45,643 bases of DNA, from contig JAHBZV010000022.1 in NCBI GenBank assembly GCA_019635275.1, forward strand, positions 1-45,643, read 5' to 3'. Positions 27,887-44,433 of this stretch are shown in pieces. The stretch is from Burkholderiaceae bacterium. Its GTDB lineage: Bacteria; Pseudomonadota; Gammaproteobacteria; Burkholderiales; Burkholderiaceae_E. The notes beneath the pieces were generated by a model. It ran no database searches and was not told where the DNA came from. It worked only from the letters and a program-made list of their open reading frames with translations. How positions within the stretch are numbered: the stretch's first letter is position 1; each line of letters opens with the position of its first letter. The translations under genes were made by a program, and so were the position numbers.

Positions 27887-27927
27887 CGCTGCCCCGAAAG
27901 TCTGATACAGATCAATTGAATACCCGC

Positions 27928-27943
27928 ATTCTGGTACCAGAAT
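27928..27943. promoter_or_regulatory. perfect 16-bp palindrome, likely Rrf2 operator
   Basis: ATTCTGGTACCAGAAT is its own reverse complement. It lies 42 bases from the GNAT start and about 200 bases before livK, between the divergent units. A TTGAAT that could act as a -35 box for the plus-strand promoter begins 12 bases upstream (27916-27921), so a bound protein would cover the promoter core. A near copy occurs at 44415-44430 upstream of the hemerythrin gene. Length and symmetry suit an Rrf2 dimer, and the nearest regulator gene encodes one. This assignment is inference. Confidence 0.65.
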
Positions 27944-28009
27944 AGGTGTTAATGGGCGCGCTGTAAACGTCTCCGCTGCATCCGACCCGGCTGTCGCCCC
28001 ATGCAGACA

Positions 28010-28045
28010 CCATCGGGCAAGCCCGCTCCGGGGCTTGCCCGATGG
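28010..28045 (+). other. 15-bp perfect stem-loop in the liv operon leader
   Basis: CCATCGGGCAAGCCC (28010-28024) is followed by the loop GCTCCG and the exact complement GGGCTTGCCCGATGG (28031-28045). It lies between the palindromic operator and livK, about 97 bases before the ATG. No T run follows, so a plain intrinsic terminator is unlikely. A smaller hairpin (GGCCGC-CTC-GCGGCC) follows at 28096-28110. Possible roles are mRNA stabilisation, attenuation with a factor, or a REP-like element. Confidence 0.6.
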
Positions 28046-28141
28046 CACCCGTGCCCTGCCTCGCGCAACACGCGCGCGTCGGGGCGATACCGGCAGGCCG
28101 CCTCGCGGCCGCGTCGTCGCAGACAAGAAGAGGAGACTCGA

Positions 28142-29308
28142 ATGAAATTCGTCGCAAGCGCCCGGAACGCGATCCGGCTCGCCGGCACCTTCGCCGCGGC
28201 AGCCCTGATCGGGACCGGGACCGTCGCCGCCCAGGAGCCTATCAGAATCGGTGCCTTCCTCTCGGTCACGGGGCCCGCCGCGTTCCTCGGCGACCCCGAG
28301 CAGAAGACCCTGGAGATGTACGTCGAGCGCATCAATTCGGCCGGCGGCGTGCTCGGCCGCAAGCTGCAGCTGTTCGCCTACGACAGCGGCGGCGACGCCG
28401 AGAAGGCGCGCACGTTCACCAAGCGCCTGATCGAGCAGGACAAGGTCGACGTCATCGTCGGCGGGTCAACCACCGGCGAGACGATGGCCGCGATCCCGCT
28501 GGTCGAACAGGCGCAGGTGCCGTTCATCTCGCTCGCGGGCGCCGTCGTCATCATCGAGCCGGTCAAGAAGTGGGTGTTCAAGACGCCGCACACCGACCGG
28601 ATGGCCTGCGAGAAGATCTTCACCGACATGAACGCGCGCAAGCTCACGAAGCTCGCGCTGATCTCGGGCGCCGGCGGCTTCGACAAGTCGCTGCGCGCCG
28701 AGTGCATCAAGGTCGCGCCCAAGCACGGCATCGAGATCGTCGCCGACGAGAGCTACGGCGCAGCCGACACCGACATGACCGCTCAGCTCACGAAGATCAA
28801 GGGCACCGCCGGCGTTCAGGCGGTGATGAACTGCGGATTCGGCCAGGGACCGGCGATCGTCACCAAGAACTACAAGCAGATCGGGATGACCCTGCCGCTG
28901 TACCAGTCGCACGGTGTCGCGTCCAAGGAGTTCATCAAGCTGGCCGGCGGCGCCGCCGAGGGAGTCCGCCTGCCCGCCGCCGCGCTGCTGGTCGGCAACA
29001 TCCTTCCCGACAGCAATCCGCAGAAGCCGGTCGTGGTCGGCTACAAGAAGGACTACGAGGCCCGTTACAAGTCCGACGTTTCCACGTTCGGCGGCCACGC
29101 GTACGATGGCCTGATGATCGCCGTGGAGGCGATCAAGCGCGCCGGCGGCACCGACCGGGCGAAGGTTCGCGACGAGATCGAGAAGACCAAGGGCTATGTC
29201 GGCACCGGCGGCGTCGTCAACATGTCGCCGTCCGATCACATGGGCCTGGACCTCAGCGCGTTCCAGATGCTCGAGATCCGCAACGGCGACTGGACGCTGG
29301 TGAAATAG
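28142..29308 (+). CDS. livK: branched-chain-amino-acid-type ABC transporter, binding protein
   Basis: Periplasmic binding protein of 388 residues, preceded by a strong ribosome site (AGAGGAG about 8 bases before the ATG). The signal peptide ends near TGTVAAQEP. The mature part starts with IRIGAFLSVTGPAAFLGDPE and contains VDVIVGGSTTGETMAAIPL, KTPHTDRMACEKIF and FGGHAYDGLMIAVEAIKRAGG, all typical of LivK-like family 6 proteins. Relatives in other aromatic-degradation clusters bind aromatic acids rather than leucine. The position at the head of a liv-pad-hcr run supports phenylacetate-type ligands by context only. A 255-base non-coding leader with a palindrome and a hairpin precedes it. Confidence 0.88.
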   Translation: MKFVASARNAIRLAGTFAAAALIGTGTVAAQEPIRIGAFLSVTGPAAFLGDPEQKTLEMYVERINSAGGVLGRKLQLFAYDSGGDAEKARTFTKRLIEQDKVDVIVGGSTTGETMAAIPLVEQAQVPFISLAGAVVIIEPVKKWVFKTPHTDRMACEKIFTDMNARKLTKLALISGAGGFDKSLRAECIKVAPKHGIEIVADESYGAADTDMTAQLTKIKGTAGVQAVMNCGFGQGPAIVTKNYKQIGMTLPLYQSHGVASKEFIKLAGGAAEGVRLPAAALLVGNILPDSNPQKPVVVGYKKDYEARYKSDVSTFGGHAYDGLMIAVEAIKRAGGTDRAKVRDEIEKTKGYVGTGGVVNMSPSDHMGLDLSAFQMLEIRNGDWTLVK

Positions 29309-29345
29309 CGCGAGGCAGCGGCGGCTCGCCGGGCGGGGGCGCACC

Positions 29346-30221
29346 ATGGGCGGACAATGGGTTCAGTTCGTCGCCGGCGGGCTCACCGTCGGCGCGATCT
29401 ACGCCCTGGTGGCGCTCGGCTTCTCGATCATCTTCAACGCCAGCCGGGTGATCAACTTCGCCCAGGGCGAGTTCGTGATGATCGGCGGCATGAGCGCCGT
29501 CTCGCTGGTCGCCGCCGGCGCGCCGATGCCGGTGGCGATCCTCGGGGCCGTCGCCGTCTCGGGCGTCGTCGGCTTGCTGCTCGAGCGGCTCGCGGTCGGC
29601 CAGGCTCGCAACGCCGACGTCGTGACGCTGATCATCATCACCATCGGCGCGTCGATCTTCCTGCGCGGCCTCGCGCAACTCGTCTGGGACAAGCGCATCC
29701 ACCCGCTGCCTGCGCTGTCGGGCGACACCCCGATCTCGATCTTCGGCGCGACGATCGTGCCGCAGAGCCTGTGGGTGATCGGCGTCACGGTGGTGATCGT
29801 GGCGCTGCTGTCGTGGTTCTTCAACCGCACGCTGGCCGGCAAGGCGATGCTGGCCACCTCGTACAATCGGTTCGCCGCCCAACTGGTCGGCATCGAGGTC
29901 CGCAGGGTCCTGTTCGCCAGCTTCGGGCTCGCAGCGGCGCTGGGCGCGATCGCCGGCGTGCTGATCGCGCCGATCACCTTCACCTCGTACGACACCGGCA
30001 TCATGCTCGGCCTGAAGGGATTCGCCGCGGCGATCCTCGGCGGCCTGGGCAACTTTGCCGGCGCCATCGCAGGCGGGCTGGTGCTCGGCCTGCTCGAGAG
30101 CCTGGGCGCCGGCTACGTGTCGTCGGCGTACAAGGACGTGATCGCGTTCGTGATCATCCTCGCCGTGCTGTTCGTCCGCCCCGATGGAATCCTTGGTGCA
30201 GTCAAGAGCGAACGCGTCTGA
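29346..30221 (+). CDS. livH: ABC transporter permease, LivH type
   Basis: Inner-membrane permease of 291 residues with about eight helices. Landmarks are FVAGGLTVGAIYALVALGFSIIFNASRVINFAQGEF at the N-terminus, a central region with TSYNRFAAQLVGIEVRRVLF, and GLKGFAAAILGGLGNFAGAIAGGL, the ATPase-coupling segment. It starts 37 bases after livK. Its last 38 bases overlap the start chosen for livM. Confidence 0.92.
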   Translation: MGGQWVQFVAGGLTVGAIYALVALGFSIIFNASRVINFAQGEFVMIGGMSAVSLVAAGAPMPVAILGAVAVSGVVGLLLERLAVGQARNADVVTLIIITIGASIFLRGLAQLVWDKRIHPLPALSGDTPISIFGATIVPQSLWVIGVTVVIVALLSWFFNRTLAGKAMLATSYNRFAAQLVGIEVRRVLFASFGLAAALGAIAGVLIAPITFTSYDTGIMLGLKGFAAAILGGLGNFAGAIAGGLVLGLLESLGAGYVSSAYKDVIAFVIILAVLFVRPDGILGAVKSERV

Positions 30222-31182
30222 GCGCCACGCGCCGGCCGCGCAGTGGTGGGCCTCGCCGCGCACCGGCGGCCTGGCGACGCTCGCGCTGGCGATCGCACTC
30301 GCGCCGCTGGTGCTGGCCAACGACTATTTCTACGACGTCGCGATCCTCGTCGGGCTGAACGCGATCGTCTGCGTCGGGCTGAACCTGCTGATCGGCTACG
30401 CCGGGCAGATCAGCCTCGGCCACGCCGGCTTCTTCGGGCTCGGCGCCTACGGGTCGGCGCTGCTCACTTCGCGCTACGGCGTGCCGCCGCTGGCCGCGCT
30501 CGCCGTCGCGACGGCGGGCGTGGGCCTGATGGCCTTCGTCGTCGGGCGCCCGATCCTGCGCCTGAAGGGGCACTACCTCGCGATGGCCACGCTCGGACTG
30601 GGCGTGATCGTGTCGATCGTGCTCGCGAACGAAGACCGCGTCACCGGCGGGCCCGACGGCATGGCGGTTCCGCCGTTCACCGTGCTCGGCCACGCCATCC
30701 AGGGCGAACAGGTCTGGTACTGGATCGTTGGCGCGTGCCTGCTGCTCGCGGTATGGCTGGCGCTGAACCTGATCGAGTCGCCGACCGGGCGCGCGTTGCG
30801 CGCGCTGCACACCTCCGAGGTGGCCGCGGAGGTCGTCGGCATCGACAGCGCGCGGCAGAAACTGATGGTCTTCGTCGTGTCGGCCGTGTTTGCGGCGGTG
30901 GCCGGCGGGCTCACCGCCTTCTACAGCGGCTTCATCACGCCGGCGAAGGCGTCGTTCATGCACTCGGTCGAACTGGTGACGATGGTCGTCTTCGGTGGCA
31001 TGGCGTCGACCTTCGGCGCCGTCGTCGGGGCGGCCGTGCTCACGGTGCTTCCGCAGGCACTCACGGTGGTCAAGGAGTACGAGATGGTCGTGCTCGGCGC
31101 CATCATGATGGCCACGATGATCTTCCTGCCGCGCGGGGCAGTGCCCACGCTCGCCGGCTGGCTGCGCCGCGGGCGCAGGTGA
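30184..31182 (+). CDS. livM: ABC transporter permease, LivM type
   Basis: Inner-membrane permease of up to 332 residues. The first hydrophobic helix begins near residue 28, followed by LNAIVCVGLNLLIGYAGQISLGHAGFFGLGAYG, which is diagnostic of LivM, and later VGIDSARQKLMVFVVSAVFAAVAGGL. The ATG at 30184 gives a 38-base overlap with livH; a GTG at 30196 is an equally possible start, and the protein family does not decide between them. The gene ends in a four-base GTGA overlap with livG. Confidence 0.9.
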   Translation: MESLVQSRANASERHAPAAQWWASPRTGGLATLALAIALAPLVLANDYFYDVAILVGLNAIVCVGLNLLIGYAGQISLGHAGFFGLGAYGSALLTSRYGVPPLAALAVATAGVGLMAFVVGRPILRLKGHYLAMATLGLGVIVSIVLANEDRVTGGPDGMAVPPFTVLGHAIQGEQVWYWIVGACLLLAVWLALNLIESPTGRALRALHTSEVAAEVVGIDSARQKLMVFVVSAVFAAVAGGLTAFYSGFITPAKASFMHSVELVTMVVFGGMASTFGAVVGAAVLTVLPQALTVVKEYEMVVLGAIMMATMIFLPRGAVPTLAGWLRRGRR

Positions 31183-32024
31183 ACGTGGCGGAGTCGATCG
31201 TGAACCGGCCTACCGCGAGCGCGAACGCGCCGGCGTCCACGTCCGGCGGGCTGCTGGTCGAGGGGCTGTCGAAGGAGTTCGGCGGCATCCACGCGGTGCA
31301 GGATCTCTCCTTCTCGATCGGCGAGGGCAAGGTCCACTCGATCATCGGCCCCAATGGCGCCGGCAAGACGACGCTACTGAACCTGCTGACTGGCGTCTAC
31401 GTCCCCACCGCCGGCCGCATCCGCCTCGGCGGCCGAGACCTCACCGGCCAGCCCGCGCACGCGTTCGCCGCCGCCGGCATCGGGCGCACGTTCCAGAACC
31501 TGCAGATCTTCTTCAACATGAGCGCGCTCGAGAACGTGATGACCGGGCGCCACCTGCGCGAGCGCTGCGGCCTGATCGCCACGCTGTTGCGCGCGCCGCA
31601 GCTGGCGCGCGCTGAGCGCGACTGCCGCAGCCGCGCGATCGAGCTGTTGCGCTTCGTCGGCCTCGCCGCCCATGCCGGATCGAGCGCCGATTCGATGCCC
31701 TATGGCGCGCTCAAGCGACTCGAGATCGCGCGCGCGCTGGCAGGCGACCCGAAGATCCTGCTGCTCGACGAGCCGGCGGCGGGCCTGAACCCGACCGAAT
31801 CGCAGGAGATCGCCGCGCTCATCCGTCGGCTCGCCGAAGCCGGGACGACCGTCGTGCTGGTCGAACACAACATGCGCCTGGTGATGGGCGTCTCGGACCA
31901 CATCCTGGTGCTCGACTACGGCCGCAAGCTCGCCGAGGGCAACGCCGAGCAGGTGCGCAACGATCCGCGGGTAATCGAGGCCTATCTCGGCGCAGCAGGC
32001 GAGCCGGAGCACGCGCATGCTTGA
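31179..32024 (+). CDS. livG: ABC transporter ATPase, LivG type
   Basis: ATPase of 281 residues. The start is taken at GTG 31179, overlapping the livM stop; GTG codons at 31185 and 31200 are alternatives. The first 24 residues are an Ala/Ser/Thr-rich lead-in before LLVEGLSKEFGGIHAVQDLS. Walker A is GPNGAGKTT, the signature region reads MPYGALKRLEIARAL in the manner of LivG proteins, and Walker B is ILLLDEPAAGLNPTE. It forms the ATPase pair with LivF, which overlaps its end by eight bases. Confidence 0.92.
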   Translation: MNVAESIVNRPTASANAPASTSGGLLVEGLSKEFGGIHAVQDLSFSIGEGKVHSIIGPNGAGKTTLLNLLTGVYVPTAGRIRLGGRDLTGQPAHAFAAAGIGRTFQNLQIFFNMSALENVMTGRHLRERCGLIATLLRAPQLARAERDCRSRAIELLRFVGLAAHAGSSADSMPYGALKRLEIARALAGDPKILLLDEPAAGLNPTESQEIAALIRRLAEAGTTVVLVEHNMRLVMGVSDHILVLDYGRKLAEGNAEQVRNDPRVIEAYLGAAGEPEHAHA

Positions 32025-32718
32025 AGTCGAGGCACTGTCGAGCCGCTACGGCCGGATCACCGCGCTCGATTCGGTCAGCCTGCGCGTCGATCGCGGCGAG
32101 CTCGTCGCGCTGGTCGGCGCCAACGGCGCAGGCAAGTCGACGCTGCTGCGCGCGCTCTCCGGCGTCCAGCCTGCGGCAGCCGGCAGCGTGCGCTTCGAAG
32201 GCGCCGACGTGACCCGCGCCTCCGCCAGATCGCGCGTGCGCATGGGCATCGTGCAGGTGCCCGAAGGACGACAGGTATTCGGCCCGCTGACGGTCGAGGA
32301 CAACCTGATGCTGGGCGCCTACCTGCGCCCGCCCGGCGAAATTCGTCCGGGCCTCGAGCAGGTCTACGCGCTGTTTCCGATCCTCGCGTCGAAGCGCAAC
32401 GACGCGGCCGGCACCCTGTCGGGCGGCCAGCAGCAGATGCTCGCGATGGGCCGCGCGCTGATGGCGCGGCCGAAGTTGCTGTTGCTCGACGAACCGAGCA
32501 TGGGGCTGGCGCCGCGCCTCGTCGCCGAGATCTTCGCCACCATCCGCTCGCTGAAGGACGCCGCCACGACGATCCTGCTGGTCGACCAGAACGCCCGCGC
32601 CGCGCTGTCGGTGGCCGATCGCGCCTACGTGCTGGAAGTGGGCCGCATCGCGCTGTCTGGTCGCGGCACCGAGCTGCTCGACGACCCTGCGGTCCAGCAG
32701 GCGTACCTCGGGCTATAG
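32017..32718 (+). CDS. livF: ABC transporter ATPase, LivF type
   Basis: ATPase of 233 residues, the usual LivF length. It opens LEVEALSSRYGRITALDSVSL, has Walker A GANGAGKST, the LivF-specific GIVQVPEGRQVFGPLTVEDNL, the signature LSGGQQQMLAMGRALM and Walker B LLLLDEPSMGLAP. It completes the five-gene transporter. The 44-base gap that follows, before the thioesterase gene, is the longest in the run up to 44379 and shows no terminator hairpin. Confidence 0.93.
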   Translation: MLEVEALSSRYGRITALDSVSLRVDRGELVALVGANGAGKSTLLRALSGVQPAAAGSVRFEGADVTRASARSRVRMGIVQVPEGRQVFGPLTVEDNLMLGAYLRPPGEIRPGLEQVYALFPILASKRNDAAGTLSGGQQQMLAMGRALMARPKLLLLDEPSMGLAPRLVAEIFATIRSLKDAATTILLVDQNARAALSVADRAYVLEVGRIALSGRGTELLDDPAVQQAYLGL

Positions 32719-32762
32719 CGCGACCCCCACCTCCCTTCCCCGAACCGAACCCGGAGAACCCG

Positions 32763-33170
32763 ATGAAAGCCTCCCTCGCCCCCGGCGTCACCCGCACCAG
32801 CCAGCTCACCGTCGACCGTGACCGCACCATCGGATTCATGGGCGAGAATGCCCGCGTCTACGCCACGCCGATGCTGGTGCAGGACATCGAGATCGCCTGC
32901 CGCGAGCTGCTGCTCGAGCACCTCGACGCCGGCGAAGACTCGGTCGGCACGCGCGTCGAACTCGACCACCTCGCCGCAACGCTGCTGGGCATGCCGGTCG
33001 AGTTGAAGGTGACGATCGCCGAGGTCAAGGGCCGCGCGGTCACTTTCGACATCGAGGGCCGCGACAGCGTCGACACGATCTGCCGCGGCCGGCACGGCCG
33101 CTTCGTCGTCGACGTCGAGGGCACGGCCGCGCGGCTGGCGGCCAAGGCCAAGAAGGCGGGCCTGGCATGA
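32763..33170 (+). CDS. FlK-like hot-dog thioesterase
   Basis: A 135-residue hot-dog protein. The family segments are YATPMLVQDIEIACRELL, VGTRVELDHLAATLLGMPV and GRHGRFVVD. Thr35, Glu43 and His69 fall at the same mutual spacing (8 and 26) as the catalytic Thr, Glu and His of fluoroacetyl-CoA thioesterase FlK, so it is probably active on an acyl-CoA with a polar alpha-position. Its stop overlaps the padB start by four bases (ATGA), tying it to phenylacetyl-CoA oxidation. I infer that it cleaves phenylglyoxylyl-CoA or a related 2-oxoacyl-CoA, or recovers CoA from dead-end esters. A ribosome site CCGGAGAA lies just upstream. Confidence 0.8.
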   Translation: MKASLAPGVTRTSQLTVDRDRTIGFMGENARVYATPMLVQDIEIACRELLLEHLDAGEDSVGTRVELDHLAATLLGMPVELKVTIAEVKGRAVTFDIEGRDSVDTICRGRHGRFVVDVEGTAARLAAKAKKAGLA

Positions 33171-35929
33171 ACTTCCCTGCCGCGGCCGCGAGCGCAGGGC
33201 GCGCCGACGCGCCCTCAGCGGGCACGCGACGCATCCCGACCTATTGCTACCAGTGCGTGGCCGGTCCCGACCTGCTCACCGTCAAGGTCGTCGACGGCGT
33301 GGCCACCGAGGTCGAGCCCAATTTCTGCGCCGAGAAGATCCACCCCGGCGGCGGCAAGGTCTGCGTAAAGGCCTACGGGCTGGTCCAGAAGACCTACAAC
33401 CCGAACCGGGTCCTCACGCCGATGAAGCGGACCAACCCGAAGAAGGGCCGCGACCAGGATCCGGGCTTCGTGCCGATCTCGTGGGACGAGGCGTTCGACA
33501 CGATTGCCGAACGCCTGAACCGCATCCGCGAGCAGGGACTGACCGACGAATCGGGCTATCCGCGGCTGGCGGCCAGCTTCGGCGGCGGCGGCACGCCGCA
33601 GTTCTACATGGGCACCTTCCCGGCGTTCCTCGCGGCCTGGGGGCCGGTCGACATGGGCTTCGGCTCGGGCCAGGGCGTCAAGTGCGACCACTCCGAGCAC
33701 CTGTACGGCGAGTTCTGGCATCGCGCGTTCATCGTCGCGGCCGACACGCCCAACTGCAACTACCTGATCTCCTGCGGCTCGAACATCGAGGCCTCGGGCG
33801 GCGTGGTCGGCGTCTGGCGGCATTCGCACGCGCGCGTGCGCGGCATGAAACGGGTACAGGTCGAGCCGCACCTGTCGGTGACCGGCGCCTGCTCGGCGCA
33901 GTGGGTGCCGATCAAGCCGAAGACCGACGCGGCGTTCCTCTACGCGCTCATTCATGTGCTGCTGCACGACGTACCGCGCGAGCGGCTCGACCTGCCGTTT
34001 CTCGCCAAGCGCACCGCGTCGGCCTACCTCGTGGGCCCGAACGGCTACTACCTGCGCGACCGCGCGACCCGCAAGCCGCTGGTCTGGGACGCCAACGCCG
34101 GCCGCGCGCGCGTGCACGACAGCGAGGGGCTCGACGAGGCGCTGCACGCGCAGGTCGAGGTCGACGCGATCGAGATCGGCGCCGACGACGAGGTGCTCGC
34201 CGACGGCGTGCTGGCGGGCCGCACCGCCTTCGACGCGCTGGTCGCGCACATGCAACCCTACTCGCCCGAATGGGCGGCCGGCATCTGCGACGTTCCCGCC
34301 GACACGATGCGCGCAATCGCGCGCGAGTACGTCGAGCAGGCATGCGTCGGCCAGACGATCGAGATCGAGGGGCAGCGGCTGCCGTACCGGCCGGTCGCGG
34401 TCACGCTCGGCAAGACGATCAACAACGGCTGGGGCGGCTACGAGTGCTGCTGGGCGCGAACGATGCTCGCCTCGCTGGTCGGGGCGCTCGAAGTCCCCGG
34501 GGGCACCATCGGCACCACGGTGCGCCTGGTGCGCCCGATGTCGGAGCGGCTCGAAAGCGCGAAGCCGGGCCCGGACGGCTTCATGGCGTATCCGCTCAAT
34601 CCGACCGATCGCGAGAACTGGTCGCCACGCCCGAACATCCGCAACGCCTACCGCACGATGGTGCCGCTGGTCGGCAACGGAGCGTGGAGCCAGGCACTCG
34701 GGCCGACGCACTTCTCGTGGATGTTCCTCGACGAGACGCCGAAGGGGCTGCCGAAGGTCACCTACCCCGACGTCTGGTTCGTCTACCGGACGAACCCTGC
34801 GATCTCGTTCTGGGACACGCTGGCGGTCGCCGACAAGATCTCCCGCTTCCCGTTCGTCGTCGCGCTCGCCTATACCCGCGACGAGACCAACCACTTCGCC
34901 GACATCCTGTTGCCCGACGCCACCGACCTCGAAGGCCTGCAGCTGATCCGCATCGGCGCGACCAAGTACGTCGAGCAGTTCTGGGACCACGAGGGCTTCG
35001 CGCTTCGCCAGCCGGCGGTCGCGATGCGCGGCGACGCACGCGACTTCACCGACATCGCCACCGAGCTCGCGCGGCGCAGCGGCATCCTCGACCGGTACAA
35101 CGCCGCGATCAACAAGGGCGCCTGCGGCGTTCCCCTGAAGGGCGCGCACGGCGACTACTCGCTGCGGCCCGACCGCGCGTACACGCGCGAAGAGATCTGG
35201 GATGCCGCCTGCCGGTCGGCCAGCGCGGAGTTGACCGACGGGGCGCAGGCCAACGGGCTGGACTGGTGGAAGGAGAACGGGCTGGCGACCAGGCCATTCC
35301 CGCGGCTCGCCTGGTACCTCTACCCGACGATGGTCGAACGCGGCCTGCGCTTCGAACTGCCCTACCAGGAACGCCTCAAGCGCGTCGGCGCCGAGCTCGG
35401 GCGGCGCCTTCACGAGCACGACATGCGCTGGTGGGACAAGCAGATGACCGAGTACCAGGCGCTGCCGCCCTGGAAGGATTTTCCCGGCCTCTGGGAAGGC
35501 ATCGTCACCGCCGCCGGTGCGCGCGCCGAAGACTATCCGTTCTGGCTGCTCACGTCGCGCAGCATGCAGTACGCCTGGGGCGGCAACGTCGGCGTCCAGA
35601 TGATCCGCGAGGTGGCCGAGAACGTCGCCGGGCACCGCGGCGTGATCGTCAATCCGCAGGCTGCAGCGAAGCTCGGCATCGAGGACGGCGACGAGATCGA
35701 GATCGCGACGCCGAAGCGCAGCGTGCGCGGGCGCGCGGTGCTGCGCCAGGGCATCCGCCCCGACACGCTGCTGCTGATCGGCCAGTTCGACCACTGGGCC
35801 ACGCCGTTCGCGAAGGACTTCGGCGTGCCCAGCCTGAACACGCTGGCCAGCATGTCGATGGACCTGACCGACGCGACCGGATCGAGCGCCGACATCGTGC
35901 GGGTGCGCATCGCGAGGGCCGCGACATGA
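33167..35929 (+). CDS. padB: phenylacetyl-CoA:acceptor oxidoreductase, molybdopterin subunit PadB
   Basis: Catalytic subunit of 920 residues in the DMSO-reductase family. PadBCD oxidises phenylacetyl-CoA at the alpha carbon to phenylglyoxylate with a quinone-level acceptor. The N-terminal cluster region reads TYCYQCVAGPDLL with Cys27 and Cys30, then Cys54 and Cys66; the usual third Cys of a CxxCxxxC motif is a Pro here. Cys173 in VKCDHSEHLYGE is the probable molybdenum ligand. The C-terminal cofactor-binding domain (ARAEDYPFWLLTSRS; NPQAAAKLGIEDGDEIEIATPKRSVRGRA) is intact. There is no twin-arginine signal, so the enzyme faces the cytoplasm. The start overlaps the thioesterase stop, and the end overlaps padC. 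Confidence 0.88.
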   Translation: MNFPAAAASAGRADAPSAGTRRIPTYCYQCVAGPDLLTVKVVDGVATEVEPNFCAEKIHPGGGKVCVKAYGLVQKTYNPNRVLTPMKRTNPKKGRDQDPGFVPISWDEAFDTIAERLNRIREQGLTDESGYPRLAASFGGGGTPQFYMGTFPAFLAAWGPVDMGFGSGQGVKCDHSEHLYGEFWHRAFIVAADTPNCNYLISCGSNIEASGGVVGVWRHSHARVRGMKRVQVEPHLSVTGACSAQWVPIKPKTDAAFLYALIHVLLHDVPRERLDLPFLAKRTASAYLVGPNGYYLRDRATRKPLVWDANAGRARVHDSEGLDEALHAQVEVDAIEIGADDEVLADGVLAGRTAFDALVAHMQPYSPEWAAGICDVPADTMRAIAREYVEQACVGQTIEIEGQRLPYRPVAVTLGKTINNGWGGYECCWARTMLASLVGALEVPGGTIGTTVRLVRPMSERLESAKPGPDGFMAYPLNPTDRENWSPRPNIRNAYRTMVPLVGNGAWSQALGPTHFSWMFLDETPKGLPKVTYPDVWFVYRTNPAISFWDTLAVADKISRFPFVVALAYTRDETNHFADILLPDATDLEGLQLIRIGATKYVEQFWDHEGFALRQPAVAMRGDARDFTDIATELARRSGILDRYNAAINKGACGVPLKGAHGDYSLRPDRAYTREEIWDAACRSASAELTDGAQANGLDWWKENGLATRPFPRLAWYLYPTMVERGLRFELPYQERLKRVGAELGRRLHEHDMRWWDKQMTEYQALPPWKDFPGLWEGIVTAAGARAEDYPFWLLTSRSMQYAWGGNVGVQMIREVAENVAGHRGVIVNPQAAAKLGIEDGDEIEIATPKRSVRGRAVLRQGIRPDTLLLIGQFDHWATPFAKDFGVPSLNTLASMSMDLTDATGSSADIVRVRIARAAT

Positions 35930-37436: not shown

Positions 37437-37468
37437 CGACGGCGTCCACGCAAATACGAGGAGAACAC

Positions 37469-38821
37469 ATGGGCACGAGCACTTCGACCAAACCGGGCTC
37501 CGCCGCGAAGGCCGCCGACGGGCGCTACCTGCACGCGGCGGTGGAAACCATGCCGCGCGAGCAGCTCCAGGCGCTGCAACTCGCCCGGCTGCGCGACACG
37601 GTCAGGAACGCCTGGGAGAACGTGCCGCTGCACCGCTCGCGCCTGGACGCGGCGGGCGTGAGGCCCGAGGACATCGGCTCGCTCGACGACGTCCAGCGGC
37701 TGCCGTTCACGCTGAAGACCGACCTGCGCGACCACTATCCGTTCGGCATGTTCGCGCGACCGCTCGGCGAACTCGCGCGGCTGCACGCGTCGTCGGGGAC
37801 GACCGGCAAGCCGACGGTCGTCGGCTACACGCAGGGCGACCTCGACCACTGGGCCGACCTGATGGCGCGCTCGCTGTACTCGGGCGGCGCCCGGCGCGGC
37901 GACGTGGTCCACAACGCGTACGGCTACGGACTGTTCACCGGCGGGCTGGGCGCGCACTACGGCGCCGAGCGCCTCGGCGGCGTCGTGGTACCGATGTCGG
38001 GGGGCTCCACCGAGCGGCAGGTCTCGCTGATCATGGACTTCAAGGCGCGCGTGCTGTGCTCGACGCCTTCCTACGCGCTGGCGATCGCCGAGCTGGCCGA
38101 GCAGCAGGGCGTCGACCTGGCGAAGGACTCGGCGCTCGCGGTCGGCATGTTCGGCGCCGAGCCCTGGAGCGACGCGATGCGCCGCGAGATCCAGGCGCGC
38201 CTGGGCATCCGCGCGGTCGACATCTACGGGCTGTCCGAGATCATGGGCCCGGGCGTGGCCTGCGAATGCGAGCACCACGCCGGGCTGCATGGCTGGGAGG
38301 ACCACTTCCTGTTCGAGGTCATCGATCCCGACACCGGGCGCCGGATGCCCGAGGGCGAGGCCGGCGAACTGGTGATCACCACCCTCACCAAGGAAGCGCT
38401 GCCGATGCTGCGCTACCGCACACGCGACATCACCCGGATCACGACCGCGCCGTGCGAGTGCGGGCGCACGCACGTGCGGATCCTGCGCGTCACCGGACGC
38501 AACGACGACATGCTGATCATCCGCGGCGTCAACGTCTATCCGTCGCAGGTCGAAGCGGTGCTGGTCGGCCTGCAGAACATCGCCCCGCACTACCAGCTCG
38601 TCGTCGAGCGCCACGGAAGCCTCGACCACGTGACGGTGGAGACCGAGGCGCAGCCCGGCGTCGATGCCGCCGACTACGAGCGCATCGCGCGGCAGGTGGC
38701 GCACCAGATCAAGTCGCTGCTCGGCATCACCACCGACGTCGTCGTCAAGCGCCCGGGCGAGATCCCACGCTCGCAGGGCAAGGCGGTGCGCGTGCGCGAC
38801 CTGCGACCCAAAGGAGCCTGA
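37469..38821 (+). CDS. paaK: phenylacetate-CoA ligase (PaaK/PadJ-like)
   Basis: AMP-forming ligase of 450 residues that activates an aryl acetate with ATP and CoA. The P-loop is SSGTTGKPTVVGYT (about residues 108-121). Later motifs are YGLSEIMGPGVACEC, RYRTRDITRI, the zinc-like CECGRTH typical of PaaK, and the C-terminal GEIPRSQGKAVRV with Lys438 as the probable catalytic lysine. ATG 37469 has a strong ribosome site (GAGGAG). An in-frame ATG at 37433 overlapping the padD stop would add 12 residues. In anaerobic clusters this gene is padJ. The position between pad and hcr genes suggests use of both phenylacetate and 4-hydroxyphenylacetate. Confidence 0.92.
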   Translation: MGTSTSTKPGSAAKAADGRYLHAAVETMPREQLQALQLARLRDTVRNAWENVPLHRSRLDAAGVRPEDIGSLDDVQRLPFTLKTDLRDHYPFGMFARPLGELARLHASSGTTGKPTVVGYTQGDLDHWADLMARSLYSGGARRGDVVHNAYGYGLFTGGLGAHYGAERLGGVVVPMSGGSTERQVSLIMDFKARVLCSTPSYALAIAELAEQQGVDLAKDSALAVGMFGAEPWSDAMRREIQARLGIRAVDIYGLSEIMGPGVACECEHHAGLHGWEDHFLFEVIDPDTGRRMPEGEAGELVITTLTKEALPMLRYRTRDITRITTAPCECGRTHVRILRVTGRNDDMLIIRGVNVYPSQVEAVLVGLQNIAPHYQLVVERHGSLDHVTVETEAQPGVDAADYERIARQVAHQIKSLLGITTDVVVKRPGEIPRSQGKAVRVRDLRPKGA

Positions 38822-38825
38822 CATC

Positions 38826-39290
38826 ATGGCAAAGCGGCTGTTGACATTGACGGTAAACGGGCGCCCCCGCGAGGACGCGGTCGCCGACCACGCGCTGCTC
38901 ATCGACTACCTGCGCGACACGGTCGGCCTGACCGGCACCAAGCAGGGGTGCGACGGCGGCGAGTGCGGCGCCTGCACGGTGCTGGTCGACGGCGAGACGC
39001 GGCTCGCGTGCATCACGCTGGCCGCGAGCTGCGAGGGCAAGCGCGTCGAGACGATCGAAAGCCTCGCCGCGGGGGGACGCATGAGCCGGCTGCAGCAGGC
39101 CTTCCACGAGAAGCTGGGCACGCAGTGCGGTTTTTGCACGCCGGGGATGATCATGGCCTCGGAAGCGCTGCTGCGCCGCAATCCCAATCCGGGCGACGGC
39201 GAAATCCGCGACGCCCTGTCAGGCAACCTGTGCCGCTGCACCGGTTACGTCAAGATCATCGAATCGGTGAAAGCCGCCGCAGGGGAGTGA
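38826..39290 (+). CDS. hcrC: 4-hydroxybenzoyl-CoA reductase, small [2Fe-2S] subunit HcrC
   Basis: A 154-residue xanthine-oxidase-family small subunit carrying two [2Fe-2S] clusters. The plant-ferredoxin-type site is CDGGECGAC plus a downstream Cys in LACIT. The second is CGFCTPGM with CRCTGY. It starts four bases after the ligase stop and is followed directly by hcrA. By itself the sequence only says aerobic or anaerobic molybdenum hydroxylase; the identity as HcrC comes from the neighbouring HcrB-type flavin subunit. Confidence 0.9.
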   Translation: MAKRLLTLTVNGRPREDAVADHALLIDYLRDTVGLTGTKQGCDGGECGACTVLVDGETRLACITLAASCEGKRVETIESLAAGGRMSRLQQAFHEKLGTQCGFCTPGMIMASEALLRRNPNPGDGEIRDALSGNLCRCTGYVKIIESVKAAAGE

Positions 39291-39294
39291 GAGC

Positions 39295-41736
39295 ATGAAT
39301 CCGACCGCCACCCTGGACGCCGGCGCCTCGTCGGCCGAGCTTCGCGGCGCGGGTCGCGGCGAGCATCCGGTCGGCCAGCGCACCCCGCTGATCGACGGCA
39401 TCGAGAAGGTGACCGGACGCGCGCGCTATACCGCCGACATCCCGTTCGGCGAGACGCTGGTAGGCAAGATCCTGCGCAGCCCGATCGCACACGGCGTGAT
39501 CCGCGGGATCGACACCGCCAGGGCGCGCGCGATGCCCGGCGTACGCGCCGTCGTCACCGGCGAGGACTTCGCGGCGCCCTACGGCGTGATCCCGATCGCG
39601 CAGAACGAATGGCCGCTCGCGCGCGGCAAGGTTCGCTATCGCGGCGAGCCGGTGGTCGCGGTGGCGGCGATCGACGAAGCGACCGCCGAGGCCGCGCTGG
39701 CGGCGATCGTGCTCGACATCGAACCGCTTCCGGCGTACTTCAGCGCGGCCGACGCCCGAGCGGCCGGCGCGACGCTGCTGCACGAGAAGAAGGCCGGCAA
39801 CGTCGAGCGCGAGGTCGACCACACCTTCGGCGACGTCGACGCGGGCTTCGCCGCGGCCGACCTCGTGCGCGAGCACACGTTCCACTACGCCGAGGTCTCG
39901 CACGGTCAGATCGAGCTCAACGCGGCGGTCGCCGCCTACGAGCCCGAGCGCGACCGCCTGACCACCCACTCGGTCACGCAGGTGCCCTACTACCTGCACC
40001 TGACGCTCGCGCAGTGCCTGGGCATGGACAGCTCGCGTATCCGCGTGGTCAAGCCCTTCGTCGGCGGCGGCTTCGGCCACCGCGTCGAGCCGCTGAACTT
40101 CGAGATGGTGACGGCGGCGCTCGCGCGCGCCGCCGGCGGCACGGTGCGCATCGAGCAGTCTCGCGAAGACAGCTTCCTCACGCACCGCGGCCGGCCCGAG
40201 ACCGACATCCGCCTCAGGATCGGCCTGAAGAAGACCGGCGAGATCACCGCCGTCGACTGCGAGATCGTCCAGCGCGGCGGCGCGTACGGCGGATACGGCC
40301 TCGTCACGATCCTGTACGCCGGCGCGCTGCTTCACGCGATCTACCGCATGGGCGCCGCGAAGTACCGCGGCTACCGCATCTACACCAACACGCCGCCATG
40401 CGGCGCGATGCGCGGGCACGGTGCGGTCGACGCGCGCCACGCGTTCGAGACCCTGCTCGACCGGATGGCCGAGGAGCTCGGGCTCGATCCGTTCGCGGTG
40501 CGGCGCGCCAACCTGATCACCCCGCCCTACCGGACACTGAACGACCTGCAGGTCAATTCGTACGGCATCCCGCAGTGCCTCGACTGGGTCGAGCAGGCCT
40601 CGGGCTGGAAGGCGCGGCACGGCAAGCTACCGCGCGGGCGCGGCCTGGGCATGGCCTGCTCGCACTACGTGTCGGGATCGGCCAAGCCGGTGCACTGGAG
40701 CGGCGAGCCGCACGCAGTCATCAACCTGAAGCTCGACTTCGACGGCGGCATCACGATCCTCACGGGCGCCTCCGACATCGGGCAGGGCTCGTCCACGCTG
40801 CTCACGCAGATCGTCGCCGAGGTGCTGGCGCTGCCGCTGGCGCGCGTGCGCGTCGTCGCCACGGACAGCGCCCTCACGCCGAAGGACAACGGCTCGTATT
40901 CGTCGCGCGTGTCGTTCATGGTCGGCAACGCGGCGCTGCGGGCCGCGCAGGCGATGAAGCGCACGCTGATGGAGGCGGCCGCGAAGCGGCTCGAGGTCAG
41001 CGTCGACGACGTCGAATGGGAAGGCGAGCACTGCCGGGTCGCGGGTACCGATCGCGTGCTCGGGTTCGAGCAGGTGGTCGAAGCGGCGCTGGCCGACAGC
41101 GGAACGCTGACGATCAAGGGCGCCTGGTCCACCCCGCCCGAGACGCAGGGCGGCAAGTTCCGCGGTGCGGCGGTCGGCTCTTCGGCCGGCTTCTCGTATG
41201 CGGCGCAGGTCGTCGAGGTCTCGGTCGACGAGGACACCGGCGTGGTCAACGTGGAGCGCGTCTGGGTCGCGCACGATTGCGGCCGCGCGATCAATCCGCT
41301 GGCGGTCGAGGGGCAGGTGCAGGGCGCCGTCTGGATGGGCATGGGCCAGGCGATGTCGGAGGAGAACCAGTACCACGAGGGGCTGCCCATGCGGCCCAAC
41401 ATGCTCGACTACCGGATCCCGACGATCGCCGACTCGCCGCCGATCGAGGTCAAGCTGGTCGAGACGAACGATCCGCTCGGCCCGTTCGGAGCCAAGGAGG
41501 CCAGCGAGGGTGCGCTGCACGGCTTCCCGCCTGCGCTGGCCAACGCGATCTACGACGCGATCGGCATCCGTCTCGACGAACTGCCGATCACGCCCGACCG
41601 GCTGCTCGAAGCGATCCACGCGAAACGCCGCAAGGAGCGGCTGCGCGCGTCCCGGCCCACGTCCGCCAGCGCCGGTGCCGGCGCATCCACGAGCGCCGCG
41701 GCCCGCGGCGCGGCGCCCCAAGCGAACCGGAGCTGA
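39295..41736 (+). CDS. hcrA: 4-hydroxybenzoyl-CoA reductase, molybdenum subunit HcrA
   Basis: Catalytic subunit of 813 residues that binds the molybdenum-pterin cofactor. It removes the para-hydroxyl of 4-hydroxybenzoyl-CoA reductively, giving benzoyl-CoA. Family landmarks are VTGRARYTADIPFGETLVGKILRSP, VGGGFGHRVEPLN, PPCGAMRGHGAVDARHAFE, GASDIGQGSSTLLTQI and the active-site region GPFGAKEASEG (Glu738 the candidate catalytic base). After the last conserved helix (about residue 780) there is an Ser/Ala-rich tail of about 30 residues not expected in the family. A good ribosome site (GGGGAG) precedes the ATG. Confidence 0.9.
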   Translation: MNPTATLDAGASSAELRGAGRGEHPVGQRTPLIDGIEKVTGRARYTADIPFGETLVGKILRSPIAHGVIRGIDTARARAMPGVRAVVTGEDFAAPYGVIPIAQNEWPLARGKVRYRGEPVVAVAAIDEATAEAALAAIVLDIEPLPAYFSAADARAAGATLLHEKKAGNVEREVDHTFGDVDAGFAAADLVREHTFHYAEVSHGQIELNAAVAAYEPERDRLTTHSVTQVPYYLHLTLAQCLGMDSSRIRVVKPFVGGGFGHRVEPLNFEMVTAALARAAGGTVRIEQSREDSFLTHRGRPETDIRLRIGLKKTGEITAVDCEIVQRGGAYGGYGLVTILYAGALLHAIYRMGAAKYRGYRIYTNTPPCGAMRGHGAVDARHAFETLLDRMAEELGLDPFAVRRANLITPPYRTLNDLQVNSYGIPQCLDWVEQASGWKARHGKLPRGRGLGMACSHYVSGSAKPVHWSGEPHAVINLKLDFDGGITILTGASDIGQGSSTLLTQIVAEVLALPLARVRVVATDSALTPKDNGSYSSRVSFMVGNAALRAAQAMKRTLMEAAAKRLEVSVDDVEWEGEHCRVAGTDRVLGFEQVVEAALADSGTLTIKGAWSTPPETQGGKFRGAAVGSSAGFSYAAQVVEVSVDEDTGVVNVERVWVAHDCGRAINPLAVEGQVQGAVWMGMGQAMSEENQYHEGLPMRPNMLDYRIPTIADSPPIEVKLVETNDPLGPFGAKEASEGALHGFPPALANAIYDAIGIRLDELPITPDRLLEAIHAKRRKERLRASRPTSASAGAGASTSAAARGAAPQANRS

Positions 41737-41738
41737 AC

Positions 41739-42737
41739 ATGGACAGCATGCCCGCATTCATCCTGAAGCGGCCGACGAGCGTCGCCGAGGCGGCGGCGCT
41801 GCTGGCCGGCGACCCGCAGGCGCGGCTCATCGCCGGGGGCACCGACCTGATCCCCAACCTGCGTCGCGGCATCGAGCGTCCGCCGGTGCTGGTCGACCTC
41901 GGCGACGTGGCCGGCCTGGACACGATCTCGTTCACGCCCGATGGCACCTGGATCGGCGCAGCGGTCAGGCTGTCGCGCCTTGCGGCCGATGCTTCGATCG
42001 GCGCCGCGTGGCCCGCCCTCGCACAGGCCGCCGGCTCGGTCGCGGGCCCGGGACACCGAACAGTCGCCAGCGTTGGCGGCAACCTGTGCCTGGATACCCG
42101 CTGCGTGTTCTACAACCAGAGCGAGTGGTGGCGCGCCTCCAATCACTACTGCCTGAAGCGTGGCGGCGACACCTGCCACGTCGCGCCGCAAGGCGCGCGC
42201 TGCCACGCCGCCTTCTCCGGTGACCTGGCGCCGGCCTTGCTCGTGCTGGACGCCGAAGTCGAACTGGTGTCGAGCCGCGCCACGCGGCGCATCCCGCTCG
42301 CCGACCTGTACCGCGACGACGGCGCGGCGCACCTGACGATCGCTCGCGACGAGGTCCTCACCCGCGTGTGGGTGCCGGCCGCCGCCAATGGCCGCGCGTC
42401 CGGCTATCGCAAGGCGCGCGCGCGCGCCGCGATGGACTTCCCGCTGGCGGGCGTCGCCTGCTCGGTCGCCGTCGGCGACGACGGCTCGATCCGTACGCTG
42501 CGCGTGGCGCTCACCGGCACCAACTCGCACCCGCTCGTGCTCGCCGGCACCGACGCGCTCGCCGGCCGGATCGCCGACGACGAGACGCTCGCCACGCTGG
42601 GCAAACTGGTCCAGAAGCAGGTCAGCCCGATGCGCACCACGGTCACGCAGTCGAACTACCGCCGGCAGGTCGCCGCGGTGCTGGCGCAGAGGCTGCTGCA
42701 ATCGCTGACCCAGCCGGCCGACGCGCCCGTCGCCTGA
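41739..42737 (+). CDS. hcrB: 4-hydroxybenzoyl-CoA reductase, FAD/[4Fe-4S] subunit HcrB
   Basis: Flavin subunit of 332 residues. The FAD-binding motif is IAGGTDLIPNLRRG and the second is VASVGGNLCLDTRC. What identifies the enzyme is an extra loop (about residues 118-158) with Cys122, Cys138, Cys146 and Cys155, which in 4-hydroxybenzoyl-CoA reductases holds a [4Fe-4S] cluster absent from ordinary xanthine-oxidase relatives. That cluster makes the enzyme run in the reductive direction with ferredoxin. It follows hcrA after two bases and precedes the DUF2249 gene by 13. Confidence 0.93.
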   Translation: MDSMPAFILKRPTSVAEAAALLAGDPQARLIAGGTDLIPNLRRGIERPPVLVDLGDVAGLDTISFTPDGTWIGAAVRLSRLAADASIGAAWPALAQAAGSVAGPGHRTVASVGGNLCLDTRCVFYNQSEWWRASNHYCLKRGGDTCHVAPQGARCHAAFSGDLAPALLVLDAEVELVSSRATRRIPLADLYRDDGAAHLTIARDEVLTRVWVPAAANGRASGYRKARARAAMDFPLAGVACSVAVGDDGSIRTLRVALTGTNSHPLVLAGTDALAGRIADDETLATLGKLVQKQVSPMRTTVTQSNYRRQVAAVLAQRLLQSLTQPADAPVA

Positions 42738-42750
42738 GCCGGATCGCGCG

Positions 42751-43047
42751 ATGACGACGCGAAACGGGGAATCGGATCCGGGCGCGCCCGTGGGCGCGCG
42801 CGGTGCCGGCGCGCGCTGGACCGAACCCGACGGCATCCACATCGACGTGCGCGGCCTGCCGGCCCCCGAGCCGCTGGTCGCCATCCTCGAGCTCGTCGGC
42901 TCGATCCGCGATGCGACGCCGGTGATCGTCCACCACGATCGCGACCCGCGGATGCTCTACCCCGAGCTCGCCGAGCTCGGCTGGACCGCCGAGCAGATCG
43001 AGGGCGCGCCGGGCGAAGTGCGCCTGCGGCTCGCCCCGGCGGGCTGA
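42751..43047 (+). CDS. DUF2249 family protein
   Basis: A small protein of 98 residues. The first 25 residues are a Gly/Ala-rich lead. The DUF2249 domain follows: IDVRGLPAPEPLVAILELV, PVIVHHDRDPRMLYPELAELGW and a C-terminal strand. The fold resembles TusA/SirA-like proteins but lacks their active Cys. Family members often sit beside nitric-oxide and denitrification genes or hemerythrins, as here with an NnrS-like gene 21 bases downstream. The biochemical role is unknown. Confidence 0.82.
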   Translation: MTTRNGESDPGAPVGARGAGARWTEPDGIHIDVRGLPAPEPLVAILELVGSIRDATPVIVHHDRDPRMLYPELAELGWTAEQIEGAPGEVRLRLAPAG

Positions 43048-43068
43048 ACCGCTCCAGGCCGACGCGAC

Positions 43069-44379
43069 ATGGCGACCCGGCTCGCAGGCACGTTCCTGGC
43101 AGGCGCGACGAGCCGTCTGCTGCCTGCGTCGATTCCGCTGCGCTTCTTCGGCGCCGCAGTCGCCAGCCACGTGTTCGCCTGGCTCGCGCTGCTCGCCGGC
43201 AGTGGCACGCTGCCGCGATTCGCCGGCGGGCTCGGCTGGACGCTGGCCGCGCTGCACCTGGTCACGCTGGGCGTGCTGGTGATGACCGCCATCGGCGCGA
43301 GCCTCCAGCTGCTGCCGGTCGCGACCCGGCAACCGGTGCGCTCGATGCGCTGGCCCGTGGTCATCTGGTGGCTGTATGCGCCGGGCGTCGCGGCGATCGC
43401 CCTGGGCATGGGGCTCGCGCTGCCGTGGCTCCTCGCGGCGGGCGCGACCGCGGTCATCGCCGCGCTGGTCGTCTACGGCGCGCTGCTCGCGCGCAACCTC
43501 GCCGGCGCCCGCGGAATGCCGATCGTCGTCGCGCACGGCTGGAGCGCGCTCGCGTCGCTGCTGGCCGTCCTGGTCACCGCGTTCTCGCTCGCGTTCACCT
43601 ACGTCGGCCTGCCGCTGATCGACCGTGCGACCGGGCTCGCGCTGCACGTCGCGTTCGCCGCCTACGGCCTGATGGGCATGCTCGCGCTCGGCTTTTCGTA
43701 CATCCTGGTACCGATGTTCGCCCTGTCGGCTGCGCCGCCCGAGCGTCGCGCGCTGGTGTCGTGCGCGCTCGCGGCGCTCGCGCTCGTCCTGGCCGGCGCC
43801 GCTGCGCTCGGGCTCGCGCCGCAAGCCTTGCGCGTGGCCGCCGTGCTCGCCGCGCTCGTGGCAGTCGGGCTGCACCTGCGAATGATGGTCGTCGCCACGA
43901 AAACCGGCATGCGCCGCGAGCTCGGGCGATCGTTCCGGCTGGTACGCATCTCGTGGGTCCTGCTGCCGCTGAGCCTGCTCGCAGCCCTGGCCGTCGCGCT
44001 CGGCGCGCCCTTCGGCGGCATGCCGACCCTGTTCGGTCTCACGCTGATCGGAGGCTGGTTGCTGACGTTCCTGCTCGGCATCCTGCAACGCATCGTTCCG
44101 TTCCTTGCGTCGATGCACAAGCCGCCGGGCAAGTCGGCGCCGCGCACCCCCTCTTCGCTGACCGACGACCGGCCGCTGGCCGTGCACTTCTGGTGCCATC
44201 TCGCAGCGCTGGCATTGCTGGCGCTGGCGATCCTGGCCGACAATGCGTGGATCGCCGCAACCGGCGCTCTGGTGGGTTTCGCCGGCGCGATCGCGTTCTC
44301 GACCTTCTTCGTGATCCTGCTGCTGCGGATGCGACGGCCGCCGCCGGCGCGCGCGACCCGCAATGCCCCTGTTGCTTGA
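43069..44379 (+). CDS. multi-pass membrane protein, NnrS / heme-copper oxidase subunit I-like
   Basis: A 436-residue membrane protein with about twelve hydrophobic helices. Histidines lie at helix positions seen in heme-copper-like or NnrS-like proteins: LRFFGAAVASHVFAW, LHLVTLGVLVMTAIGASLQLLPV, VVAHGWSALAS, LHVAFAAYGLMGMLALGF and VHFWCHLAALALL. It lacks the copper-site motif of true oxidases, so catalysis of oxygen or NO reduction is doubtful. Cotranscribed with a DUF2249 gene and followed by a hemerythrin, it fits a group of accessory proteins for NO stress or respiratory-enzyme maturation. I am sure of the membrane topology class, less so of the family name. Confidence 0.65.
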   Translation: MATRLAGTFLAGATSRLLPASIPLRFFGAAVASHVFAWLALLAGSGTLPRFAGGLGWTLAALHLVTLGVLVMTAIGASLQLLPVATRQPVRSMRWPVVIWWLYAPGVAAIALGMGLALPWLLAAGATAVIAALVVYGALLARNLAGARGMPIVVAHGWSALASLLAVLVTAFSLAFTYVGLPLIDRATGLALHVAFAAYGLMGMLALGFSYILVPMFALSAAPPERRALVSCALAALALVLAGAAALGLAPQALRVAAVLAALVAVGLHLRMMVVATKTGMRRELGRSFRLVRISWVLLPLSLLAALAVALGAPFGGMPTLFGLTLIGGWLLTFLLGILQRIVPFLASMHKPPGKSAPRTPSSLTDDRPLAVHFWCHLAALALLALAILADNAWIAATGALVGFAGAIAFSTFFVILLLRMRRPPPARATRNAPVA

Positions 44380-44411
44380 CCCGCATCAATGGACCGATCC
44401 GGTCTTGATTG

Positions 44412-44433
44412 GGTATTCTAGTATCCGAATACC
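44412..44433. promoter_or_regulatory. second Rrf2-like operator, upstream of hemerythrin gene
   Basis: GGTATTC (44412-44418) and GAATACC (44427-44433) form a 7-bp inverted repeat with 8 bases between. The core ATTCTAGTATCCGAAT (44415-44430) matches the perfect palindrome at 27928-27943 at 13 of 16 positions. A TTGATT at 44405-44410 could serve as a -35 box, again immediately before the element, so the geometry resembles the first site. The ATG of the hemerythrin gene follows 15 bases after the repeat. Confidence 0.6.

Follow-up and report, generated by a model that had tools for sequence, protein, structure and literature searches.

Which protein reads the two similar palindromes that stand at either end of an aromatic-acid locus in a Burkholderiaceae bacterium, and how far does its control extend? 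The locus lies on a stretch of 45,643 nucleotides (contig JAHBZV010000022.1 of assembly GCA_019635275.1, positions 1 to 45,643), here called the window. A first-pass annotation had proposed a compact regulon of a single regulator, most simply the Rrf2-family protein encoded beside the first palindrome. The choice of regulator was supported as the best reading, and the regulon was found to be larger than two sites. Both palindromes are predicted, with high confidence, to be operators of the Rrf2 protein encoded at 26825-27337, and the findings as a whole are very likely best explained by a BadM-type repressor regulon for anaerobic aromatic degradation.

Predicted operators in the window and in its genome

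The 16-mer core of the first palindrome, ATTCTGGTACCAGAAT (27928-27943), and the 16-mer of the second, ATTCTAGTATCCGAAT (44415-44430), are identical at 13 of 16 positions. As the first-pass annotation had stated, no third copy was found in the window with three or fewer mismatches, and none occurred in 100 dinucleotide shuffles. Both elements are wider than the 16-mers and form 22-bp dyads, CGCATTCTGGTACCAGAATAGG (27925-27946) and GGTATTCTAGTATCCGAATACC (44412-44433), the latter with perfect outer arms (GGTATTC/GAATACC). The unified predicted operator core is GTA-N5-GTAC-N5-TAC. The sites and the gene pair beside the first of them are as follows.

26825..27337, minus strand: BadM-like regulator of the Rrf2 family, free of cysteine (Pfam Rrf2, 91.7 bits; cut-off, 30)
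27353..27886, minus strand: GNAT acetyltransferase, BadL-like (Pfam Acetyltransf_1)
27925..27946, no strand: operator 1, 22-bp dyad (matrix ranks; kept upstream of GNAT-Rrf2 in relatives)
44412..44433, no strand: operator 2, 22-bp dyad (matrix ranks; same-genus conservation)

The two sites were recovered by matrices trained on other genomes. The first matrix was built from 55 distinct sites (of 114 regions examined, 68 had two mismatches or fewer), leaving out 14 loci matched to same-genus genomes and three loci in which the region upstream of GNAT was too short or not found. With this matrix, site 2 scored 26.7 and site 1 scored 24.6, ranking first and second in the window, compared with 5.0 for the next-best window score, 8.1 for the best of 20 Markov-simulated windows, and 3.9 for the best in the reversed window. 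A matrix trained on the distant set only (see below) again ranked the two window sites first and second, with scores of 22.8 and 16.0; the next score, 5.7, overlapped site 2.

In the genome to which the window belongs (G000, a draft of 3.69 Mb, 86.8% complete), the 16-mer with up to three mismatches matched at 6 places (reversed pattern, 2), and ATTC-N8-GAAT matched at 13 places (reversed, 0), 4 of which have a GTAC or GTAT centre. A 20-base form, GYATTNNNGTAYNNNAATRC, with at most one mismatch, was found at five places, and all five lie upstream of pathway or companion genes. These genes are liv-pad-hcr together with GNAT-Rrf2, the hemerythrin gene, had/kor, a padB paralogue, and an operon of reductase-like type. 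The had/kor site (C137:9861) is flanked by had (TIGR03201, 579 bits; cut-off, 339) and by a gene of the pyruvate/2-oxoacid:ferredoxin-oxidoreductase type (kor), and a true bcrB (772 bits; cut-off, 487) shares contig and strand with had. The site at C152:45866 precedes reductase-like subunits, a ferredoxin, and a hemerythrin; this operon (L170 3656-8840), in which subunits below the equivalog cut-offs are accompanied by an FdxA-type ferredoxin and another hemerythrin, possibly encodes a reductase for another aryl-CoA. The site at C119:57541 precedes a protein 61% identical to the PadB-like protein of the window, and further overlapping ATTC/GAAT half sites stand beside it (L171). Seven more places carry exactly two mismatches to the 20-base form (control, 2 on each strand). 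One of these, C88:9726, precedes an ETF-domain gene (etfB-like), which is probably a member of the regulon, and has a perfect FNR-type box. A match with three mismatches at C96:7196 (in L173) was set aside as chance, with no 22-mer there scoring above 1.0, though an FNR-type box is nearby.

Among genomes assigned to the same genus by the search tool, G005, G006, and G014 repeat four of the G000 sites (GNAT-Rrf2/liv, hemerythrin, had/kor, and reductase-like) with at most one mismatch, counted on the better strand; all three also have the C88 site, at two mismatches. The hemerythrin site shows one mismatch on one strand and two on the other in these genomes because the 20-base pattern is not symmetric. 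G005 holds, besides, one unexplained place within one mismatch (C1:2284842) and tandem-repeat matches. Operator 2 scores at least 18 bits in 10 of 11 same-genus relatives.

Recurrence of the operator with the Rrf2 gene

Beyond the genus, conservation was followed in a set of named loci, the best 80 of 192 relatives found (1.30 Mb in all; mostly Betaproteobacteria, with L104 and L143 sharing one contig). Within 1500 bases upstream of Rrf2, the pattern ATTCNNGTACNNGAAT was present in 55 of the 80 loci with at most two mismatches and in 37 with at most one. Across the 1.30 Mb, the stricter limit gave 39 matches compared with 0 for the reversed pattern; all but two lie upstream of Rrf2, and those two are overlapping matches in L102. 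In a distant family of genomes (f97), the Rrf2 protein was found in 69 of 75; all of its 30 best loci have the GNAT gene, and 29 carry GTA-N5-GTAC-N5-TAC (at most one mismatch) upstream of it, compared with no reversed match in 99.7 kb. Conservation upstream of orthologues, on which the original proposal had depended, was found in both sets.

The operator is also present outside the class of the window, in distant genomes that we infer to be Alphaproteobacteria, the search itself assigning them only to the same phylum. In a comparison of 127 upstream regions (51 distant, 76 named), the core with at most two mismatches was found in 41/51 distant regions (reversed, 4/51) and 39/76 named regions (reversed, 5/76); at three mismatches the named figures were 67/76 and 36/76. 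Matrices built from one set and applied to the other found sites of at least 12 bits in 50/76 and 41/51 regions, compared with 1 and 0 for the reversed controls. A class-wide sample contained the Rrf2 protein in 22 of 385 genomes, and 16 new regions together with L199 yielded 19 dyads with at most one mismatch, compared with 4 reversed. The dyad stands directly upstream of bcrC with an exact core in L301 and L303, and with one mismatch in L305 and L306; these targets are given by position only, and the BcrC and BcrB proteins of L301 and L306, which were scanned, pass their cut-offs. Hemerythrin in L297 and L298, and had in L304, L307, and L199, likewise have the dyad upstream. In G451 and G454, matches that precede a decarboxylase-like gene (L271, L272) were attributed to chance: they fall in a hairpin-like repeat, and in these genomes the reversed pattern matches 8 and 6 times against 2 and 2 for the pattern itself. 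A match in L311 looks like chance in GC-rich DNA. Exact matches downstream of Rrf2 (L297, L198) and matches 2 kb from bcrC (L309, L310) were also seen.

The first-pass suggestion that the motif tracks the Rrf2 gene held for strict matches and downstream genes, and failed for raw loose counts. The pattern ATTCNNGTACNNGAAT with one mismatch was present in 55 of 61 genomes. In the 20 genomes with an Rrf2 orthologue, 56 loose matches were counted (reversed control, 4; about 2.8 per genome). Per genome, raw matches are about as frequent without the gene as with it, and therefore the loose matches do not track it; only the excess over the control does. The exact core was absent from all four relatives without an orthologue that were tried (G011, G019, G022, G031), and also from G288, which has one. 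At gene level, with an orthologue limit of 150 bits (lowest counted 154, next match 56) and E <= 1e-40 for the BcrB family, 101 relatives included 20 with both proteins, 76 with neither, 4 with Rrf2 alone (G007, G017, G029, G047), and 1 with BcrB alone (G098), a co-occurrence with Fisher p = 3e-16, kinship not corrected for.

The probable regulator and its acetyltransferase partner

The Rrf2 protein of the window (P0001) has 170 residues and scores above the curated family cut-off (rrf2_super, 96.1 bits against 73.3). The GNAT gene directly adjoins it on the same strand, an arrangement found in 131 of 133 loci; in 79 of the 80 named loci, GNAT lies directly before Rrf2. The segment presumed, from the family, to be the recognition helix is nearly fixed: its 15 commonest forms, covering 101 of 133 proteins, are all S-x-[HN]HLAKV. 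The pair was also seen on an Agrobacterium tumefaciens plasmid (L046, NZ_CP123840.1), beside a liv transporter, a gene of the benzoate-CoA ligase family, and a molybdopterin-binding enzyme, with GGTTATTTAGTACGGTTTTACC upstream of GNAT.

A similar pair is described for Rhodopseudomonas palustris in PMC6191541. There, BadM represses badDEFGAB, the Crp-type AadR activates the same genes, BadL homologues acetylate aminobenzoates, and the acetamidobenzoates made by BadL release BadM from the benzoyl-CoA reductase genes; in vitro, 10 mM 2-acetamidobenzoate blocks BadM binding, the 3- and 4-forms less so. Shared with that system are an Rrf2 regulator with a GNAT partner, a benzoyl-CoA reductase target, and a Crp-type co-activator. 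By position, the predicted operator precedes a benzoyl-CoA reductase gene, bcrC, in distant genomes; in G000 it precedes had, which has bcrB on its contig and strand. The present case differs in that the host is a betaproteobacterium and that the predicted regulon adds uptake, peripheral pathways, electron supply, and hemerythrin. It is likely that the window pair is of the BadL/BadM type; whether an acetamidobenzoate is the ligand here, as the analogy would suggest, is evenly balanced. No consensus BadM operator was found in a literature search that did not cover the primary BadM papers, and the operator is not claimed to be unpublished.

An operator before the GNAT-Rrf2 pair would also fit a target gene, and a different, unlinked regulator could then read the palindromes. 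This is unlikely, since the motif and the pair occur together in two classes, the presumed recognition-helix segment is nearly fixed across orthologues, and the distant genomes carry the motif at the benzoyl-CoA reductase promoter, the site bound by R. palustris BadM (PMC6191541).

NsrR and IscR, which bind iron-sulfur clusters through cysteines, share the family and the DNA-binding domain with the window protein. An NsrR-type nitric-oxide regulator was considered because hemerythrin, NnrS-like, and DUF2249 genes hint at nitric-oxide stress, and the window protein matches the NsrR equivalog model weakly (44 bits; cut-off, 182). However, the motif C-x(4-8)-C-x(4-8)-C was found in the first 140 residues of none of the 133 orthologues (25 hold one or two cysteines), the window protein has no cysteine at all, and the genes downstream of the sites are mostly those of the benzoyl-CoA pathway. 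Compared by eye, the window sites are also unlike the NsrR motif, gATGyAT-N5-ATrCATc, as given in PMC1274295. With a differing motif and the cysteines missing, this reading was rejected as very improbable.

Probable promoter geometry and the predicted regulon

The TTGAWT boxes pointed out by the first-pass annotation do exist near both sites (TTGAAT at 27917-27922, TTGATT at 44405-44410). These hexamers change among the relatives shown, and were rejected as operator partners for that reason. The box conserved in the genus is instead TTGAT-N4-ATCAA, of the FNR/DNR type, and the promoter elements of the window are as follows.

27902-27915, plus strand: FNR/DNR-type box CTGATACAGATCAA, 27 bp centre to centre from operator 1; same spacing in many relatives
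27938..27943, plus strand: CAGAAT, probable -10 element for liv-pad-hcr transcription, located in operator 1 (right half)
44376-44389, plus strand: FNR/DNR-type box TTGACCCGCATCAA, 40 bp centre to centre from operator 2

With the FNR-type box of site 1 at -41.5, CAGAAT would fall at -10. The right half of the operator is kept while the left half varies (TACCAGAAT in L084, L092, and L094; ACCAGAAT in L140). Near the best site of the 80 named loci, the box (at most one mismatch) lies at 27 bp in 17, at 22 bp in 10, at 28 bp in 2, and at 23 bp in 1, with none in 50. Among 11 same-genus relatives, 8 keep the box of operator 2 at a distance of 40 bp; it is at 53 bp in L178 and at 38 bp in L181, L184 not being covered. 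A strong inverted repeat, CATCGGGCAAGCCC-N6-GGGCTTGCCCGATG, was seen at 28011-28044, within the leader that separates operator 1 from livK; in L076 and L077 an inverted repeat of differing sequence occupies roughly the same position.

A comparable arrangement is known for BzdR, a repressor from another protein family than Rrf2. At the PN promoter of bzd in Azoarcus sp. CIB, the FNR-type activator AcpR binds at -41.5 and BzdR lies over -10/+1 (PMC6678401). Shared are the position of the activator, the repressor over the -10/+1 region, and an anaerobic benzoyl-CoA pathway promoter; the TGCA-type operators and the benzoyl-CoA inducer described in the same source differ. The overlap of the right half of operator 1 with the -10-like CAGAAT, and the FNR-type boxes at 5 of 6 G000 sites, might suggest that the palindromes are promoter or FNR-dependent elements under selection, with no repressor involved, but the dyad persists while its distance from the box varies (27, 40, 46, 60, and 82 bp, the padB paralogue having no box), and the distant dyads are mostly without a box, making this the least credible of the readings.

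Several observations weigh against the BadM-type regulon. The related genomes are not independent, and the 41 genomes without an Rrf2 orthologue gave 120 loose matches (reversed control, 62), about 2.9 per genome. A site with at most two mismatches is missing from 25 of the 80 named loci, three of which reach back fewer than 620 bases from Rrf2, while several others show more divergent dyads. Operator 2 scores 2.9 in L181, and is thus missing there, and no dyad with at most one mismatch was found in L302 or L308. Instead of preceding the GNAT-Rrf2 pair, the dyad of L301, L303, and L305 stands in front of bcrC, some 3.2 kb away from GNAT. No FNR-type box accompanies the site of the padB paralogue, and outside the class only 1 of the 13 sites checked has one (at most one mismatch). 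At had and C88 the box stands farther away (60 and 82 bp), which misfits a simple -10 overlap. The C152 operon is termed reductase-like because its subunits fall short of the cut-offs for benzoyl-CoA reductase. Only C88 is claimed among the seven weaker G000 places, and recurrence in close relatives alone proves little, because several unclaimed places also recur in the very similar G006. Finally, the resemblance to BadL-BadM is one of family, pairing, and targets.

Further genes of this part of the window are listed below.

28142..29308, plus strand: livK-type substrate-binding protein, first gene of liv-pad-hcr (Pfam Peripla_BP_6)
29346..32718, plus strand: liv-type permease and ATPase genes, livHMGF
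32763..33170, plus strand: FlK-type acyl-CoA thioesterase
33167..35929, plus strand: molybdopterin oxidoreductase, presumably PadB-like; no model names PadB (Pfam Molybdopterin)
38664..42737, plus strand: hcrC-hcrA-hcrB, 4-hydroxybenzoyl-CoA reductase (NCBIfam TIGR03193, TIGR03194, and TIGR03195, all above cut-off)
42751..43047, plus strand: DUF2249 protein
43069..44379, plus strand: membrane protein that we take to be NnrS-like (no Pfam match)
44449..44943, plus strand: hemerythrin-domain protein, directly after operator 2 (Pfam Hemerythrin)
44976..45643, plus strand: second GNAT protein (GNAT2), cut by the window end (Pfam Acetyltransf_1)

Two frames between 35930 and 38663 gave no family match in the scans, and padC and padD were not identified there. 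The DUF2249 and NnrS-like genes (42751-44379), which lie between hcr and hemerythrin, accompany the cluster in 10 of 11 same-genus stretches (L184 not covered) and in some distant ones. Near the GNAT-Rrf2 pair, hemerythrin and GNAT2 also stand together in L118, L132, L154, L199, L297, and L298, some of these loci being in distant genomes.

Sites, positions, conservation, and neighbouring genes are read directly from the DNA. The regulon predicted from them would include liv uptake, the PadB-like enzyme, 4-hydroxybenzoyl-CoA reductase, the padB paralogue, and hemerythrin-GNAT2, as well as had and kor with the benzoyl-CoA reductase genes of the same contig, and the reductase-like operon with its ferredoxin and hemerythrin. 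We infer operon extents, binding, repression, and FNR activation as follows. An Rrf2 dimer would read GTA-N5-GTAC-N5-TAC; an FNR/DNR-type activator bound upstream would turn the promoters on at low oxygen; and the repressor, lying over the -10/start region, would hold them off until an aromatic signal comes, which by analogy with R. palustris may be an acetylated aminobenzoate produced by the GNAT protein.

Taken at its broadest, and judged just on the probable side, the proposal is that a BadM-type repressor reading GTA-N5-GTAC-N5-TAC would serve as a master switch for anaerobic aromatic degradation in alpha- and betaproteobacteria, would form an AND gate with FNR in the betaproteobacteria (oxygen absent, aromatic signal present), and would command two hemerythrin genes whose products may protect the oxygen-sensitive reductases, with GNAT making the signal. 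An operator that recurs at base level across classes would make the regulon readable from genomes, and predicts new members among the hemerythrins, ETF, and Kor. It also makes testable the unusual idea that ring reduction is unlocked by a small molecule which the bacterium itself acetylates.

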